From: Campylobacteraceae bacterium
GTDB taxonomy: Bacteria; Campylobacterota; Campylobacteria; Campylobacterales; Arcobacteraceae
DNA length: 64,000 bases
Assembly (NCBI GenBank): GCA_013215945.1
Contig: JABSOM010000007.1
Coordinates: 62,001-126,000 of the forward strand
Direction: 5' to 3'
This document shows, piece by piece, positions 5,774 to 37,370 of the stretch. The position numbers and the translations under genes were made by a program. The notes under the pieces were generated by a model, which was given only the letters and a program-made list of their open reading frames with translations, was not told where the DNA came from and made no database searches. Position 1 is the stretch's first letter. Every line of letters starts with the position of its first letter.

Positions 5774-7587
5774 TAAGAAATCTTATCAATTTGAAAACTA
5801 TGAGAGATGAATTTTTTAAAATCAATTACAATACTTAATGAATCTTTTAATAAATCTCTTTGTATTTTCCCCAAACTAAGGGTATCAATTTCATTATTAA
5901 TATTCTTTTTACATTGATAACTTTTTAACTGGGCTTTTAAACGTAAAGTCCCTAAAACATCAAAAGCTTCTAAGAGTTCATTCCCCATATTTTCATCCAA
6001 AATATTTCTCTCAACTAAAATTTTGATTCGTTTAACTGTAGTTGTTTCTCTTATTTTTTCTCTTAAACATAACGATCTAATACCCTGAACTATAGGAAAA
6101 ACACCTGCTTTTTTAATATCAATATAATTAACCTTAGTCATAAAACTATTAACCGTTCGAGGCGTTTCAAAAGTTAAGGTTGATTTTGCAAAGTAGGCCA
6201 TAAAAACATCTTTATCATGTAATTTGTGAAATAAATCATCTTTTAAATCAATTAATAAGTTTTTATCTCCAGCAACTGCAAAAGAATCAAAGAAAATAGC
6301 TAAGTCCATATAATTTTGTAAATCAGGAGTTTGAATCCATCTGGCTGTTTCGTCTTTATAATCTTGAACTCTTTTACACCAAAATGGATTGGATACCATA
6401 ATATTACCTTCACAAGGTGGGTATCCAAAATCAATAAGTGAAGCAGTGATTTTTTCCATATATTCTTTATATTCACTGGCATTTGAAGAATCATTAATAA
6501 CCAAAGCATTGTCTTGATCGGTTTTGATTATTTGTTCGTTTCTTCCTTCACTTCCCATAACAATAAAACATGCATTTTGTCTTAATTCTTTTGGTAGGAT
6601 TAATTCATAGAGTTTTTTATATACTTTGGTATTAAGCTGACCAATTAAATTTGCAATATGAACTACTTTTACACCTTTTGCTTGCATGGTTGTAATAATA
6701 TTCATTAAAGATTGGCTAGCTAGTTTTAATTCTTCTAAGTTATTTGCTTTTTTAATTTTTGTATCTACTACATTGGTGTGATTTGCAAAATGTGACAAAA
6801 CATCAATTTGTTCTAAAATTCCTACTAATTCTTTTTTTGAATTAAGCACTCCTACTCTTTTAATATTCTTTTTAATTAATAAAGAAAGTGCATCAAAAAG
6901 GTAGTCTTCTGCATTTACCGTTAATAAAGGGAAAATTGCAATTTCTTGTACTTCAATATTTAAATCTCTTTTTTGTAATAAAACTTTCATTTTTAGTAAA
7001 GAATCTGTAATAATTCCGTATTCTTCACCTTTTTTTACAACAATAGTAGATGTTTTATATTCTAAGGATTTTTCAATTGCATTCAATAATTTTTCATCTT
7101 GTTTAACAATGCAAGGCTCATGAACAATTGTATCTTCGACTTTATCCAAAATAAAAGTAGATAATTCAGATGAAAACTCTTTTTCTTTTAACATTTGTAA
7201 TTTACTCACAAGGTTATTTAAAAAATAATTCTTAAATTGTTCATTTTTTTCAAGAAGATTTAAAAAAGTTTTTTTTTCCAGCTCATAACAAATTAAATCT
7301 TCTTCTACTTTAAAAGTACTTTTTGTTTTTGAATAAATCAAAGAATTTGAATCAAAAGAATCTTCATTAGAATAATCCATAATAAGTTCATCTTCTTTAA
7401 ACTCGTGAACATTTCCTTTTATAATAATAAAAAAATGATCAGGAATTTTAAGAGGAGATATTAAAACAGTTCCTTTTGGATAATAAGCAATATCCATGTG
7501 TTTAATGCACATATGCATTTGATCTTCTTTTAAAACTTCAAAAGGGTGAATATTTGATAAGAAGGATTTTTGGTCTCTAAGGCTCAT
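5773..7587 (-). CDS. Cyclic-nucleotide-binding/CBS/DUF294 nucleotidyltransferase
   Basis: This 604-residue cytoplasmic multidomain protein has a cNMP-binding-like beta-barrel at about 15-115 and a CBS pair at about 150-270. A GlnD-type nucleotidyltransferase core (DUF294) follows, with MGSEGRNEQ at 344-352 and the metal-binding DQD at 357-359, and then a helical DUF294 C-terminal domain. The family joins ligand sensing (cyclic nucleotide, adenylates) to transfer of a nucleotide onto an unknown target. It heads a two-gene operon with the exonuclease and lies downstream of the symporter genes, separated by nested hairpins. A regulatory link to acetate metabolism is inferred from context only. 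Confidence 0.85.
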   Translation of the reverse strand: MSLRDQKSFLSNIHPFEVLKEDQMHMCIKHMDIAYYPKGTVLISPLKIPDHFFIIIKGNVHEFKEDELIMDYSNEDSFDSNSLIYSKTKSTFKVEEDLICYELEKKTFLNLLEKNEQFKNYFLNNLVSKLQMLKEKEFSSELSTFILDKVEDTIVHEPCIVKQDEKLLNAIEKSLEYKTSTIVVKKGEEYGIITDSLLKMKVLLQKRDLNIEVQEIAIFPLLTVNAEDYLFDALSLLIKKNIKRVGVLNSKKELVGILEQIDVLSHFANHTNVVDTKIKKANNLEELKLASQSLMNIITTMQAKGVKVVHIANLIGQLNTKVYKKLYELILPKELRQNACFIVMGSEGRNEQIIKTDQDNALVINDSSNASEYKEYMEKITASLIDFGYPPCEGNIMVSNPFWCKRVQDYKDETARWIQTPDLQNYMDLAIFFDSFAVAGDKNLLIDLKDDLFHKLHDKDVFMAYFAKSTLTFETPRTVNSFMTKVNYIDIKKAGVFPIVQGIRSLCLREKIRETTTVKRIKILVERNILDENMGNELLEAFDVLGTLRLKAQLKSYQCKKNINNEIDTLSLGKIQRDLLKDSLSIVIDFKKFISHSFQIDKIS

Positions 7588-33416: not shown

Positions 33417-34349
33417 ATGAAGCAAAAAAATAAAGCATTGGTTTTAATGAATATGGGTGGCGCTAGAAATAAAGATGAATTAAAACTATTTTTAAATAAC
33501 ATGTTTAATGATAAAAATATCATAACTTTTAAAAGTACTTTTTTACGATATTGTCTGGCAAAAATAATTGTATTATCGCGTTTAAATAAAGCCTGGGAAA
33601 ACTATGTAAAAATTGGTGGTTCTTCTCCTCTTCATTCTATTACTATAAAATTAGTTAATAAATTAAACAATAAACTAGAAAACTATGAAGTAAAACAAGT
33701 TATGCGTTATACCCCTCCTTTTGCCCAAGAAGCATGCGATTCTTTGCAAGAGCTAAATATTAAAGAACTAGTATTACTGCCTTTATATCCCCAATACTCT
33801 ACAACAACAACTAAATCTTCCTTAGAAGATTTCATGAATGTCAAAAACTTTAATTTTAAAACACGAATTATTGAGCCTTTTTATAAAAATGATCTTTTTA
33901 ATACTATTATAATTAATGATATTAAAAAATCTGTATTAAGTACGAAAGGTTACAATTTAATTTTTTCGGCCCATGGTTTACCTCAAAAAATTGTTGATGC
34001 AGGGGATCCTTATCAAGAACAAGTAAGGGAACATGTAGCTATTTTAATTGAAAAATTAAAAAAAGAGGACCTTGAATTTACATCTGTTAATTTAGCGTAT
34101 CAATCAAAAGTAGGGCCTATGAAATGGATTACACCTTCCTTGGATGATAAATTAAAAGAATTTAAAAATGAACGTGTTTTAATTTATCCTATTTCTTTTA
34201 TAATTGATAACTCAGAAACTATATTTGAGTTAGATATAGAATACAGAGAAATTGCAAAATCACACGGTATTAGTGACTATAAAGTTTGTCCTTGTGTCAA
34301 TGACTCAGATGCTTTTGTTTCTTTTATTGAAGAGTTAATAAAAGAATAA
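33417..34349 (+). CDS. hemH: Ferrochelatase
   Basis: This 310-residue ferrochelatase inserts iron into protoporphyrin IX (or coproporphyrin in some lineages). Family features are the start ALVLMNMGGARN, LLPLYPQYSTTTT, the catalytic His region FSAHGLPQKIV and the C-terminal DNSETIFELDIEY. It starts with an ATG after AATAGGAAAAAA. It is the first gene of a run that continues into the AmmeMemoRadiSam genes (2-base gap). Confidence 0.95.
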   Translation: MKQKNKALVLMNMGGARNKDELKLFLNNMFNDKNIITFKSTFLRYCLAKIIVLSRLNKAWENYVKIGGSSPLHSITIKLVNKLNNKLENYEVKQVMRYTPPFAQEACDSLQELNIKELVLLPLYPQYSTTTTKSSLEDFMNVKNFNFKTRIIEPFYKNDLFNTIIINDIKKSVLSTKGYNLIFSAHGLPQKIVDAGDPYQEQVREHVAILIEKLKKEDLEFTSVNLAYQSKVGPMKWITPSLDDKLKEFKNERVLIYPISFIIDNSETIFELDIEYREIAKSHGISDYKVCPCVNDSDAFVSFIEELIKE

Positions 34350-34351
34350 AC

Positions 34352-34897
34352 ATGGAAAATAATCTTTTATTAGAAATTGTATATGCGGCAATAAAAGAAG
34401 AATTTGATCCTAAGATTTATATAAAAAAAGATTTTCTATTAAAAGAACACAAGCTTTTAAATAAAGTAGAAGCTAGTTTTGTTACTTTAAAACTTAACAA
34501 TCGATTAAGAGGCTGTATAGGCTCCTTACAAGCCCACAAAATACTTTTAGAAGATCTTATCCATAATGCAAAAGCGGCTGCTTTTAGAGACCCCCGGTTT
34601 GCTCCTTTAACAAAAGAAGAATTTGAAAATATTCACATAGAGATTTCTCTTTTATCCTCTTCTTTAGAAGTGAAATATTCAAATGTAGATGATTTAAAAT
34701 CTAAAATCAAAATAAATACACATGGTGTAATACTAAAGCATGGAAATAATAGCGCAACCTTTTTACCTCAAGTTTGGGAACAATTAAACAGTTTTGAGCT
34801 TTTTTTTGATGCTTTATGTAAAAAAGCAGGTCTTCCTTATTCTTGTTTAGAAGAAAATCCTAGAATTTTCACCTATGAAGTAAAAAAAATACAATAA
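34352..34897 (+). CDS. AmmeMemoRadiSam system protein A (AMMECR1 domain)
   Basis: This 181-residue AMMECR1-domain protein contains the conserved RLRGCIGSLQ signature near residue 50 and FRDPRFAPLTKEE. It is component A of the widely distributed but functionally undefined AmmeMemoRadiSam system. It shares one base with the following radical SAM-Memo fusion gene, so all three parts of the system are present in two adjacent genes. A role in a modification reaction directed by the radical SAM partner is inferred. Confidence 0.9.
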   Translation: MENNLLLEIVYAAIKEEFDPKIYIKKDFLLKEHKLLNKVEASFVTLKLNNRLRGCIGSLQAHKILLEDLIHNAKAAAFRDPRFAPLTKEEFENIHIEISLLSSSLEVKYSNVDDLKSKIKINTHGVILKHGNNSATFLPQVWEQLNSFELFFDALCKKAGLPYSCLEENPRIFTYEVKKIQ

Positions 34898-36663
34898 TGA
34901 AATATTTTAAAAAAGACAGTAACAAAGGAAAACTAATATGTCTTTTATGCTCACACTATTGTTCTATAAAAAAAGATCAAGTGGGAATATGTGGTATTAA
35001 TAAAAACACAGGTGATGAAATAGATTGTTTAGTGTACGGACATATTGCTGCTATGAATATAGATCCTATTGAGAAAAAACCCTTGTATCATTTTTATCCC
35101 CAGAGTCAATCTTTATCTTTAGGAACAGTTGGCTGTAATTTTAAATGTACTTTTTGTCAAAATTGGGGTATCTCACAAGAAAAAAAAATAAATAAAGAAA
35201 AATTCTTTGCCCCCATTGACATCGTAAACTTAGCCTTAAAACATAAGTGTAAATCTATTTCTTATACCTACAATGAACCCACTATTTTTTACCCTTATGC
35301 AAAAGATATAGCCTTAGAAGCTAAAAAATACGATATTAAATCGGTATATGTTTCTAATGGTTTTGAAAGTTCTGAAGTAGCTAGTGATATGATAGGAATT
35401 ATTGATGCCATAAATGTAGATTTGAAATGTTTTACCAATGAGTATTATAAAAAACTAGGAGGTTCTTTAGATATATTATTAAAAAATCTTAAATTTTTTG
35501 CTAAAGCAGATATTCACCTAGAAATCACAACTTTATTGGTACCTAGTAAAAACGACTCGAAAGAAGAAATATACAAAATTGCTAAGTTTATAAAAGATGA
35601 ATTAGGAGATGAAATTCCTTGGCACTTATCTGCTTTTCATCCTGATTATAAAGAACTCGATCTTCCTAGAACGTCAAAAGAATCTTTATTAAGTGCCAAA
35701 AAAATAGGAGAAGATTTAGGCTTAAAGCATGTGTATATTGGAAATGCAGGCTTAGATAATCATACAAGATGTACAAAGTGTAATAAGGTTTTAATCCACA
35801 GAGTATATTTTAATACTTTGGAAAATACTTTAGACAATGATAGCTGTTCTTGTTCCAAAAAACTAGAAGGAGTTTTTATGACAAAACGAAAAATGACTGT
35901 AGCTGGCACTTTTTATCCAGAAGAAAAAAGTGAAATTTTGCGATATATTGAACATTTTAATCAAGGTTTTACTTATAAAAAACTTCTAAATAATATAAAA
36001 GCTTTAATTGTTCCTCATGCAGGTTATATATATTCTGGTTTTACAGCCAATATTGCGTATTATTTAAGTTCGTATCAAAAGTATAAAACCCTAATAATTA
36101 TTGGACCCAGCCACAAAATATCTTTTGAAGGTGCCAGTGTTTGTAGTTATGATACGTATGAAACACCTTTAGGAAATATTGAAATAAACAAAACATTTAT
36201 AAAAGAATTGCAAAATGAATTTTCATATTTGTACTTTAACAAAAATGCACATGCAGAACATTCAACAGAAACACAAGCCCCTTTTATAAAACACTATTTT
36301 CCAAATGCATCTCTTATTGAAATTGTATATGGTAAACTAAGCGCTAAAGAATTAAGTATATTGTTTGAAAAACTTTTAAATAAAGATGATGTTCTTTTAG
36401 TTATTTCAACAGATTTAAGTCATTTTCACAGTCAAGAAGAATCAAATATTATTGATAAACACTGTGTACAAGCTCTTATTTCACAGAACTTAGAAGCATT
36501 AGAAAAAAGTGAAGCCTGTGGAATGACAGGACTAAAAGCTCTTTTATTGGCAGAAAAAAATAAAAACCTTAAAAATATAGAATTACATTCTTGTACCAGT
36601 GCAAAAGTTACTAAAGATGAAACAAGAGTAGTTGCTTATACTTCATTTATTGTAGGAGATTAA
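34897..36663 (+). CDS. Fused radical SAM enzyme and Memo protein (AmmeMemoRadiSam RS-B)
   Basis: This 588-residue protein joins a radical SAM enzyme (about 1-327) to a Memo-like domain (about 328-588). The 4Fe-4S site is CNFKCTFC (C80, C84, C87). Extra Cys pairs lie near residues 15-32 and in the linker (CTKCNK, CSCSK). The Memo part begins MTVAGTFYPEEK and holds VPHAGYIYSGFT and STDLSHFH, which carry the metal-site His residues. The internal ATG at 35878 (residue 328) has its own ribosome-binding site AGAAGGAG five bases upstream. Separate Memo could therefore also be made, and the two genes may be an ancestral pair that lost a stop codon. Confidence 0.9.
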   Translation: MKYFKKDSNKGKLICLLCSHYCSIKKDQVGICGINKNTGDEIDCLVYGHIAAMNIDPIEKKPLYHFYPQSQSLSLGTVGCNFKCTFCQNWGISQEKKINKEKFFAPIDIVNLALKHKCKSISYTYNEPTIFYPYAKDIALEAKKYDIKSVYVSNGFESSEVASDMIGIIDAINVDLKCFTNEYYKKLGGSLDILLKNLKFFAKADIHLEITTLLVPSKNDSKEEIYKIAKFIKDELGDEIPWHLSAFHPDYKELDLPRTSKESLLSAKKIGEDLGLKHVYIGNAGLDNHTRCTKCNKVLIHRVYFNTLENTLDNDSCSCSKKLEGVFMTKRKMTVAGTFYPEEKSEILRYIEHFNQGFTYKKLLNNIKALIVPHAGYIYSGFTANIAYYLSSYQKYKTLIIIGPSHKISFEGASVCSYDTYETPLGNIEINKTFIKELQNEFSYLYFNKNAHAEHSTETQAPFIKHYFPNASLIEIVYGKLSAKELSILFEKLLNKDDVLLVISTDLSHFHSQEESNIIDKHCVQALISQNLEALEKSEACGMTGLKALLLAEKNKNLKNIELHSCTSAKVTKDETRVVAYTSFIVGD

Positions 36664-36665
36664 AA

Positions 36666-37370
36666 ATGGAATACACTTTTATACTTAAAAAAATCATATC
36701 CGCTTTTTTAATGCCTTTATCTTTGGGACTTATTTTAGCTTTTATTGCTTTGATTTTTTTATATTTGAATTCCTATAAAAGGGCAAAAGTTTTTTTAAGT
36801 CTTTCTTTTTTATGGATATTTTTCATTTCTTATGGCCCTTTAGCAAATAAAGTACTTGCACCTTTAGAAAATACTTATGAAAAAGTACCTTTGAATCAAA
36901 AAGCGTCGTATATCTTGCTTTTAGGAGGCGATTATGAAAGTAGAGCTTATGAAGCTTTGCGTTTATATTATTTAAATAAAGGCTCCAAGATTATTACTTC
37001 TGGGTATAAAGGTAGGGGTGAAATTTCAGAAGCCCTTATAAATGCCAAGAAATTAATCTCCCTAGGAATTCCTCAAAGTGATATTCTAATTCAAGAATCA
37101 CCTAAAGATACAAAAGAAGAAGCTCTAAGCGTGAAAGAGATTGTAAAAAACGAGAAGTTTTTTTTAGTGACTTCTGCTTACCATATGAAAAGAGCTATGA
37201 GGATTTTTGAAAAAGAAGGATTAAATGTCATAGCTGCACCGACACGTTTTTTAGTAAAAGACAATTATTACCTCTCTCTTCCTATGGCTTCTTCTTTGCA
37301 AAAAACAGAGGTCTCATTTCATGAATACTTGGGTCTTTTATGGTTAGATATAAAAGAACTGTTTAATTGA
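36666..37370 (+). CDS. DUF218/YdcF-like envelope protein
   Basis: This 234-residue protein has two N-terminal membrane helices (about 11-31 and 38-57) and a periplasmic DUF218 domain with YILLLGGDYESR and the later SAYHMKRAMRIFEKEG. The family includes ElyC and SanA, which affect envelope or peptidoglycan-precursor handling. It starts 2 bases after the Memo fusion stop, so it is probably in the same operon. The molecular activity is not established. Confidence 0.85.
   Translation: MEYTFILKKIISAFLMPLSLGLILAFIALIFLYLNSYKRAKVFLSLSFLWIFFISYGPLANKVLAPLENTYEKVPLNQKASYILLLGGDYESRAYEALRLYYLNKGSKIITSGYKGRGEISEALINAKKLISLGIPQSDILIQESPKDTKEEALSVKEIVKNEKFFLVTSAYHMKRAMRIFEKEGLNVIAAPTRFLVKDNYYLSLPMASSLQKTEVSFHEYLGLLWLDIKELFN

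Follow-up and report, generated by a model that had tools for sequence, protein, structure and literature searches.

Repeated fusion of the radical SAM and memo genes in Arcobacteraceae, with a presumed memo start retained inside the fused gene

In the Arcobacteraceae, the genes of the radical SAM enzyme and of the Memo protein of the AmmeMemoRadiSam system appear to have been joined into one open reading frame several times, and the balance tilts slightly towards the view that selection has kept the memo start in four of the fused lineages, which would then make a bifunctional enzyme together with free Memo. On the same view, the need for a memo start before the fusion would have set the last codons of the upstream enzyme and with them the preference for Val over Ile.

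Results

The window, which is the whole stretch of 64,000 nucleotides that was analysed, spans positions 62001-126000 of contig C7, which belongs to an assembly of 3.24 Mb, and the genes of the locus described here are all on the forward (+) strand of the window. A ferrochelatase gene (33417-34349) is followed by the gene of an AMMECR1-domain protein of 181 amino acids (AmmeMemoRadiSam protein A, 34352..34897; TIGR04335 with E 1.4e-54, PF01871 with E 1.8e-43), the stop codon of which shares one base with the start codon of the radical SAM–Memo fusion gene in the sequence TAATG (34895..34899). The fusion gene (34897..36663) encodes 588 amino acids (66.7 kDa) without an internal stop, and an ElyC-like gene (36666-37370) is its downstream neighbour. 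When the whole proteins are compared with NCBIfam, all curated cut-offs are exceeded: the AMMECR1 protein scores 184.1 bits with TIGR04335 (cut-off 99), and the fusion scores 326.2 with the radical SAM enzyme family TIGR04337 (cut-off 220) and 224.4 with the Memo, or protein B, family TIGR04336 (cut-off 26). All three components are encoded together, linked by adjacency, by the one-base overlap and by fusion. A preliminary description of this DNA had placed the AMMECR1, radical SAM and Memo parts in two coupled genes, and their coordinates, frames and domains are confirmed, with the families above the NCBI cut-offs. The Rfam matches in the window are four tRNAs and nothing else.

Close split relatives differ from the fused gene by about one base of spacing, and there is a run of five T at the joint, which could point to two separate genes whose stop codon or frameshift has been concealed by an assembly or sequencing error. 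The probability of such an error, a concern already raised in the preliminary description, is nevertheless negligible and this candidate was rejected, because the same frame is open in 4/4 genomes of the genus (about 81-98% DNA identity) and further fused lineages with other linkers are present in genomes of one or two contigs (G004, G039, G084, G091).

The radical SAM half carries four N-terminal cysteines (C15, C18, C22 and C32; 34939..34992), which are likely to form a metal site, and the CxxxCxxC motif of the radical SAM [4Fe-4S] cluster (C80/C84/C87; 35134..35157; PF04055); each of these cysteines is present in 98% of the 122 aligned rows. It also has a C-terminal cysteine ribbon (C292, C295, C317 and C319; 35770..35853), the second half of which (C317-C319, 35845-35853) is CxC in 4/4 genomes of the genus and CxxC in other genera. 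The Memo half (protein B), which coincides with the presumed internal open reading frame (35878..36663, 261 amino acids, 29.6 kDa), matches TIGR04336 on its own with E 1.6e-67 and keeps the nearly invariant residues, with the exception of a Cys that is common to 93% of the rows and is Ser 538 here.

AlphaFold2 predicted the full 588-residue chain with a mean pLDDT of 93.8 and a pTM of 0.82, the joint included (blocks 88-90), and the model is compatible with domains that are packed rather than floating. Among the Foldseek matches, the fold nearest to the Memo half is that of human MEMO1 (3BCZ, 7KQ8; TM-score by target length 0.78-0.80), and the one nearest to the radical SAM half is that of pyruvate formate-lyase activating enzyme (3CB8; 0.79 by target length). 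According to the excerpt of PMC11081632, human MEMO1 has iron or copper ligands at H49, H81 and C244, dioxygenase activity was not found, and its primary molecular function is still called unknown. H49 and H81 align with H374 and H406 of the fusion in a phmmer alignment with positions counted by hand, and C541, which lies outside that alignment, is the likely third ligand of the MEMO1 type; each of the three residues is present in at least 99% of the 122 rows. LigB-type extradiol dioxygenases gave weak fold matches (3VSG, 7TXY), and the candidate third ligand is Cys here, as opposed to glutamate in the LigB type.

The Memo half begins at ATG 35878-35880, which is in frame as codon 328 (M328) of the fusion and is preceded by the internal Shine-Dalgarno sequence AGAAGGAG (35865..35872, duplex energy -8.8 kcal/mol) and the spacer TTTTT. 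This Shine-Dalgarno sequence is located exactly at the boundary between the radical SAM and Memo domains. A background set was compiled from the window and 20 stretches of 20 kb from the same genome (464 kb with 282 ORFs of at least 200 amino acids), and it contains 1958 internal in-frame ATGs, ATG 35878 included. A six-base match to the anti-Shine-Dalgarno sequence at proper spacing precedes 13 of the 1958, and AAGGAG is found at ATG 35878 alone; a duplex energy as low as this one is likewise found for 13/1958 internal ATGs when every position within 20 nt is allowed, and for 3.5% of the 282 gene starts that were called mechanically. None of the other starts examined at this locus has so strong a Shine-Dalgarno sequence, the values being -2.2 kcal/mol for AMMECR1, -0.7 for the radical SAM part and -7.3 for elyC. 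AMMECR1 and the radical SAM part have hardly any Shine-Dalgarno sequence, which is in keeping with their translation being coupled to that of the preceding gene. The ribosome-binding site that the preliminary description had noticed five bases upstream of this in-frame ATG is therefore real. Its argument that such a site has no purpose unless Memo is made alone does not stand, because the same bases (35866..35877) are both the codons of EGVF, the conserved terminus of the radical SAM part, and the memo ribosome-binding site that the fusion has inherited; the mere presence of the site proves nothing. The dual use of bases recurs at the end of the fusion gene, where the Shine-Dalgarno sequence AGGAG of the ElyC-like gene (36654-36658, 7 nt from ATG 36666) lies within the last codons (V-G-D-stop).

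RNA folding at ATG 35878 showed no unusual openness (z 0.82), and the Shine-Dalgarno sequence and the spacer pair partly in a weak hairpin of the window sequence. RNA structure was rejected as an explanation of the start, as nothing in the folding is unusual.

The origin of the internal site can be seen in the split relatives. Merging identical copies of a junction from two collections and setting aside L022, L024, L033, L093 and L183 left 122 distinct junctions between radical SAM and memo, almost all of them from the order; one alignment took in 78 out of 106 sequences. A conserved motif, xG(V/I)(F/W/Y), closes the radical SAM protein right after its last pair of cysteines. The memo ATG follows the GGNR bases of this motif by 6 or 7 nt in 68 split junctions, where memo begins before the radical SAM gene has ended and is out of frame with it in 68/68. 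The core GG(A/G)G is present in 75/79 junctions with the memo ATG close and in 11/43 without (Fisher 8e-16), according to a near/far rule that was chosen after inspecting the first 73 junctions and scores L073 as far despite an additional ATG at 6 nt; among the split junctions the corresponding counts are 64/68 near and 10/37 with the ATG elsewhere. Many split junctions with a distant ATG have a separate purine-rich signal ahead of memo.

The association was also followed on a tree of 121 rows (L037 left out). The tree yields 11 independent pairs that differ in the nearness of the ATG; on average the core changes with the ATG in 6.6 of them and against it in 0.0 (median p 0.0156). The Gly codon alone, the choice of which is purely synonymous, received no support on the tree (2.2 pairs with the ATG, 1.0 against it, median p 1), and the tree-based signal comes from the complete core and from the choice between Val and Ile. 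In a position control that used the same 122 rows, GG(A/G) occupies the motif Gly in 99% of near rows, compared to 29-81% at 11 other conserved Gly columns. The residue after the motif Gly is Val, in place of Ile, in 95% of near and 35% of far rows (p 9e-13), whereas at 11 other V/I columns the smallest p is 1.6e-4, with a direction opposite to that of the motif Val. In the split relatives, the codons of the motif double as the Shine-Dalgarno sequence of memo, and the internal site of the fusion is inherited from this arrangement.

Several split junctions are worth describing individually. The radical SAM proteins of L024 and L022 are without the C-terminal cysteine ribbon; the former still ends in EGVFK with GAAGGGGTTTTTAAATG (about 5940-5963), and in the latter TAGGAGG stands ahead of the ATG (about 5850-5864), as if the memo signal had outlived the lost domain. 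In L045 and L047 (about 2490-2502) memo continues in the same frame directly past a TAG (GAAGGAGAATAGATG), one stop codon short of a fusion.

The survey of relatives that the preliminary description had proposed found both split and fused forms. A hand count of 104 genomes of the family gave 18 with the fused gene (one of which, G048, has an internal run of N, and another, G052, is split over two contigs), 27 with two adjacent genes and 4 with radical SAM and Memo apart; of the remainder, Memo occurs without the radical SAM protein in 22, a radical SAM fragment alone in 1 and nothing beyond weak matches to other radical SAM proteins in 3, and 29 are without any match. In one of the surveyed genomes (G075, contig C168, 10155-10980), radical SAM-like matches full of stop codons lie about 7.5 kb from an intact memo, and they are perhaps the remnant of a decayed radical SAM gene. 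No fused form outside the family is among the matches listed in an order-level search of 398 genomes, where eight frames of 628-664 amino acids (L085-L092) each consist of two ORFs and are not fused.

The fused forms fall into six clades with different linkers. The ATG is kept in GVF-M (this genus; L010), GV(F/Y)-(N/E)-M (g16) and GV(Y/F)-PKM (g2, g5, g19), and it is lost in G(V/I)F-EEN (g7) and G(V/I)F-(Y/H)T (g8). One ancient fusion common to all fused forms was rejected by the AU test (p 1.7e-8) on 58 hand-chosen rows, 17 of them fused. The fused and split states change 5 times on a tree of 71 rows (71/73, L037 and L093 left out) and 6 times on the tree of 58 rows, numbers which alone cannot separate gains from losses. 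The distance between the motif and the ATG is 5, 8 or 11 nt, in frame, in the fused forms and 6 or 7 nt in the split forms, and these spacings suggest that very small indels at the gene overlap produced the fusions. The earlier argument that a fusion speaks for two proteins acting together gains support from this recurrence.

Four of the fused clades have kept the internal ATG, and two (g7 and g8) have lost both the ATG and the Shine-Dalgarno sequence. The core GG(A/G)G is present in 11/11 fused rows with the ATG versus 1/6 without (p 0.001), and the longer form [AG]GG[AG]G in 11/11 versus 0/6; by clade the contrast is 4/4 versus 0/2 (p about 0.07, by our own arithmetic). A core that is kept where the ATG is kept and decayed where it is lost is expected if the start still works in the ATG-keeping group. 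The clades g7 and g8 imply that free Memo is not needed there and that the internal start is no general need of the fusion.

Conservation within the genus is less informative. The sequence AAGGAGTTTTTATGA is a fully conserved run of 15 bases in three genomes of the genus, the two sub-groups of which are about 81% identical, and among the runs listed, nine of the ten that were counted as having at least 16 bases exceed it. Both fourfold sites of GGA-GTT are invariant in these three genomes, and so are 55/136 such sites. Synonymous conservation in three genomes is thus too weak to decide whether the start is used.

AMMECR1 is located directly upstream of memo in 12/12 examined genomes, out of the 22 in which Memo occurs but the radical SAM protein does not, and in 3/3 examined genomes with the radical SAM gene elsewhere. 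Since AMMECR1 adjoins memo even where the radical SAM protein is missing, AMMECR1 and Memo would form the core of the system, to which the radical SAM enzyme adds a step.

Discussion

We consider it likely, on the whole, that two overlapping genes were joined with the memo start left intact and that both the fusion and free Memo are now made. On this explanation, a small indel at the overlap would have joined the radical SAM and memo genes into one frame, leaving the Shine-Dalgarno sequence and the ATG of memo inside the fusion. Ribosomes arriving from AMMECR1 would run through and produce the 588-residue fusion, in which the radical SAM and Memo active sites would be held together, and other ribosomes would bind AAGGAG (35867-35872), start at ATG 35878 and produce free Memo of 29.6 kDa. 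Free Memo would pair with AMMECR1, a pair that many relatives keep without a radical SAM gene, and the AMMECR1–Memo core gives a reason for keeping free Memo beside the fusion. As there is no upstream termination in the fusion, any initiation at this ATG would need to occur de novo while ribosomes elongate across the site.

Whether the start is still used in this genus depends on how its retention is read. Initiation at ATG 35878, with free Memo still being made, is probable. It is possible, though a good deal less so, that only the fusion is made and that the Shine-Dalgarno sequence and the ATG persist merely as codons of EGVF and as a linker Met that has not drifted; the EGVF motif is a conserved protein sequence in split and fused forms alike, two fused clades have lost the ATG yet kept the fusion, and synonymous conservation within the genus is weak. 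However, the motif by itself does not dictate GG(A/G)G, given that the far and ATG-less rows mostly have GGN-ATN or GGT; both signal and ATG are kept in four fused clades with diverged members, and Met 328 is kept while the linker residues that follow it vary. Retention in step with the ATG also bears on another reading, according to which the internal Shine-Dalgarno sequence initiates nothing and slows elongating ribosomes so that the cysteine ribbon folds before Memo emerges. The position of the sequence at the domain joint would suit such a pause, but ATG-less fused forms lose the sequence despite having the same joint, and Shine-Dalgarno-dependent pausing as such is disputed, which makes this reading very improbable. 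Continued initiation at the internal ATG is the reading that we prefer.

The repeated fusion of radical SAM and Memo is good evidence for one shared substrate or for something passed between them, and physical channelling between the two sites may be involved. A radical modification of a protein, a peptide or a small molecule could be expected, in which Memo may perform a metal or redox step and AMMECR1 may have a binding role. The fusion offers a single protein with both sites that can be assayed with AMMECR1, and human relatives exist for MEMO1 and AMMECR1. The junctions are in addition a natural experiment on overlapping genes, in which the ribosome-binding site that a downstream gene requires dictates codons, and one residue, of the protein encoded upstream, and in which the overlap signal decays once the start is gone.

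Comparison with known systems

The three-part system already has a name, and both stop-start overlaps and in-frame starts inside genes are familiar phenomena, as far as the excerpts of the cited sources extend. Within the limited coverage of the literature, titles and the beginnings of abstracts mention no radical SAM–Memo fusion, although the 2019 JBC paper on Memo-AMMECR1 may describe one, and the same limited coverage holds no report of repeated fusion with an inherited start or of the imprint of a start on the upstream protein. The repeated fusion with an inherited start, and its imprint, therefore appear to be new.

The short form of CheA and the forms of IF2 are isoforms that arise from in-frame internal starts. 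In the excerpt of PMC7159879, Burroughs 2019 is cited for 'recently-described Memo-Ammecr1 systems' and their radical SAM enzymes. The AmmeMemoRadiSam system (TIGR04335, TIGR04336, TIGR04337; PMC7159879, in excerpt) has the same three proteins encoded by one operon, A first, then radical SAM and B, but here a single polypeptide combines the radical SAM enzyme with protein B, and the start of B is preserved within the fused frame. Contigs of Planctomycetota and Lentisphaerae (L033, L037) likewise show a pairwise fusion within the three-component system, but it is Memo and AMMECR1 that are joined there, and the radical SAM gene is separate. MEMO1 (3BCZ, 7KQ8) and pyruvate formate-lyase activating enzyme (3CB8) have the same folds as the two halves but are separate proteins, and the MEMO1 structures listed are without a radical SAM partner, unlike the fusion.

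Overlapping stop-start pairs coupled by termination-reinitiation (PMC6728339 and PMC10666635, in excerpt) have the arrangement of the split relatives; the fusion differs in having lost the upstream stop, which leaves no room for reinitiation and would require the start to act by itself. The excerpt of PMC11955535, a source that also covers retapamulin profiling of start sites in Campylobacter jejuni, speaks of 'an accepted phenomenon' with regard to internal in-frame starts that give isoforms. Long and short forms of one gene, made from an internal Shine-Dalgarno sequence and ATG, are likewise presumed here, where the start would derive from a former gene start by way of fusion.
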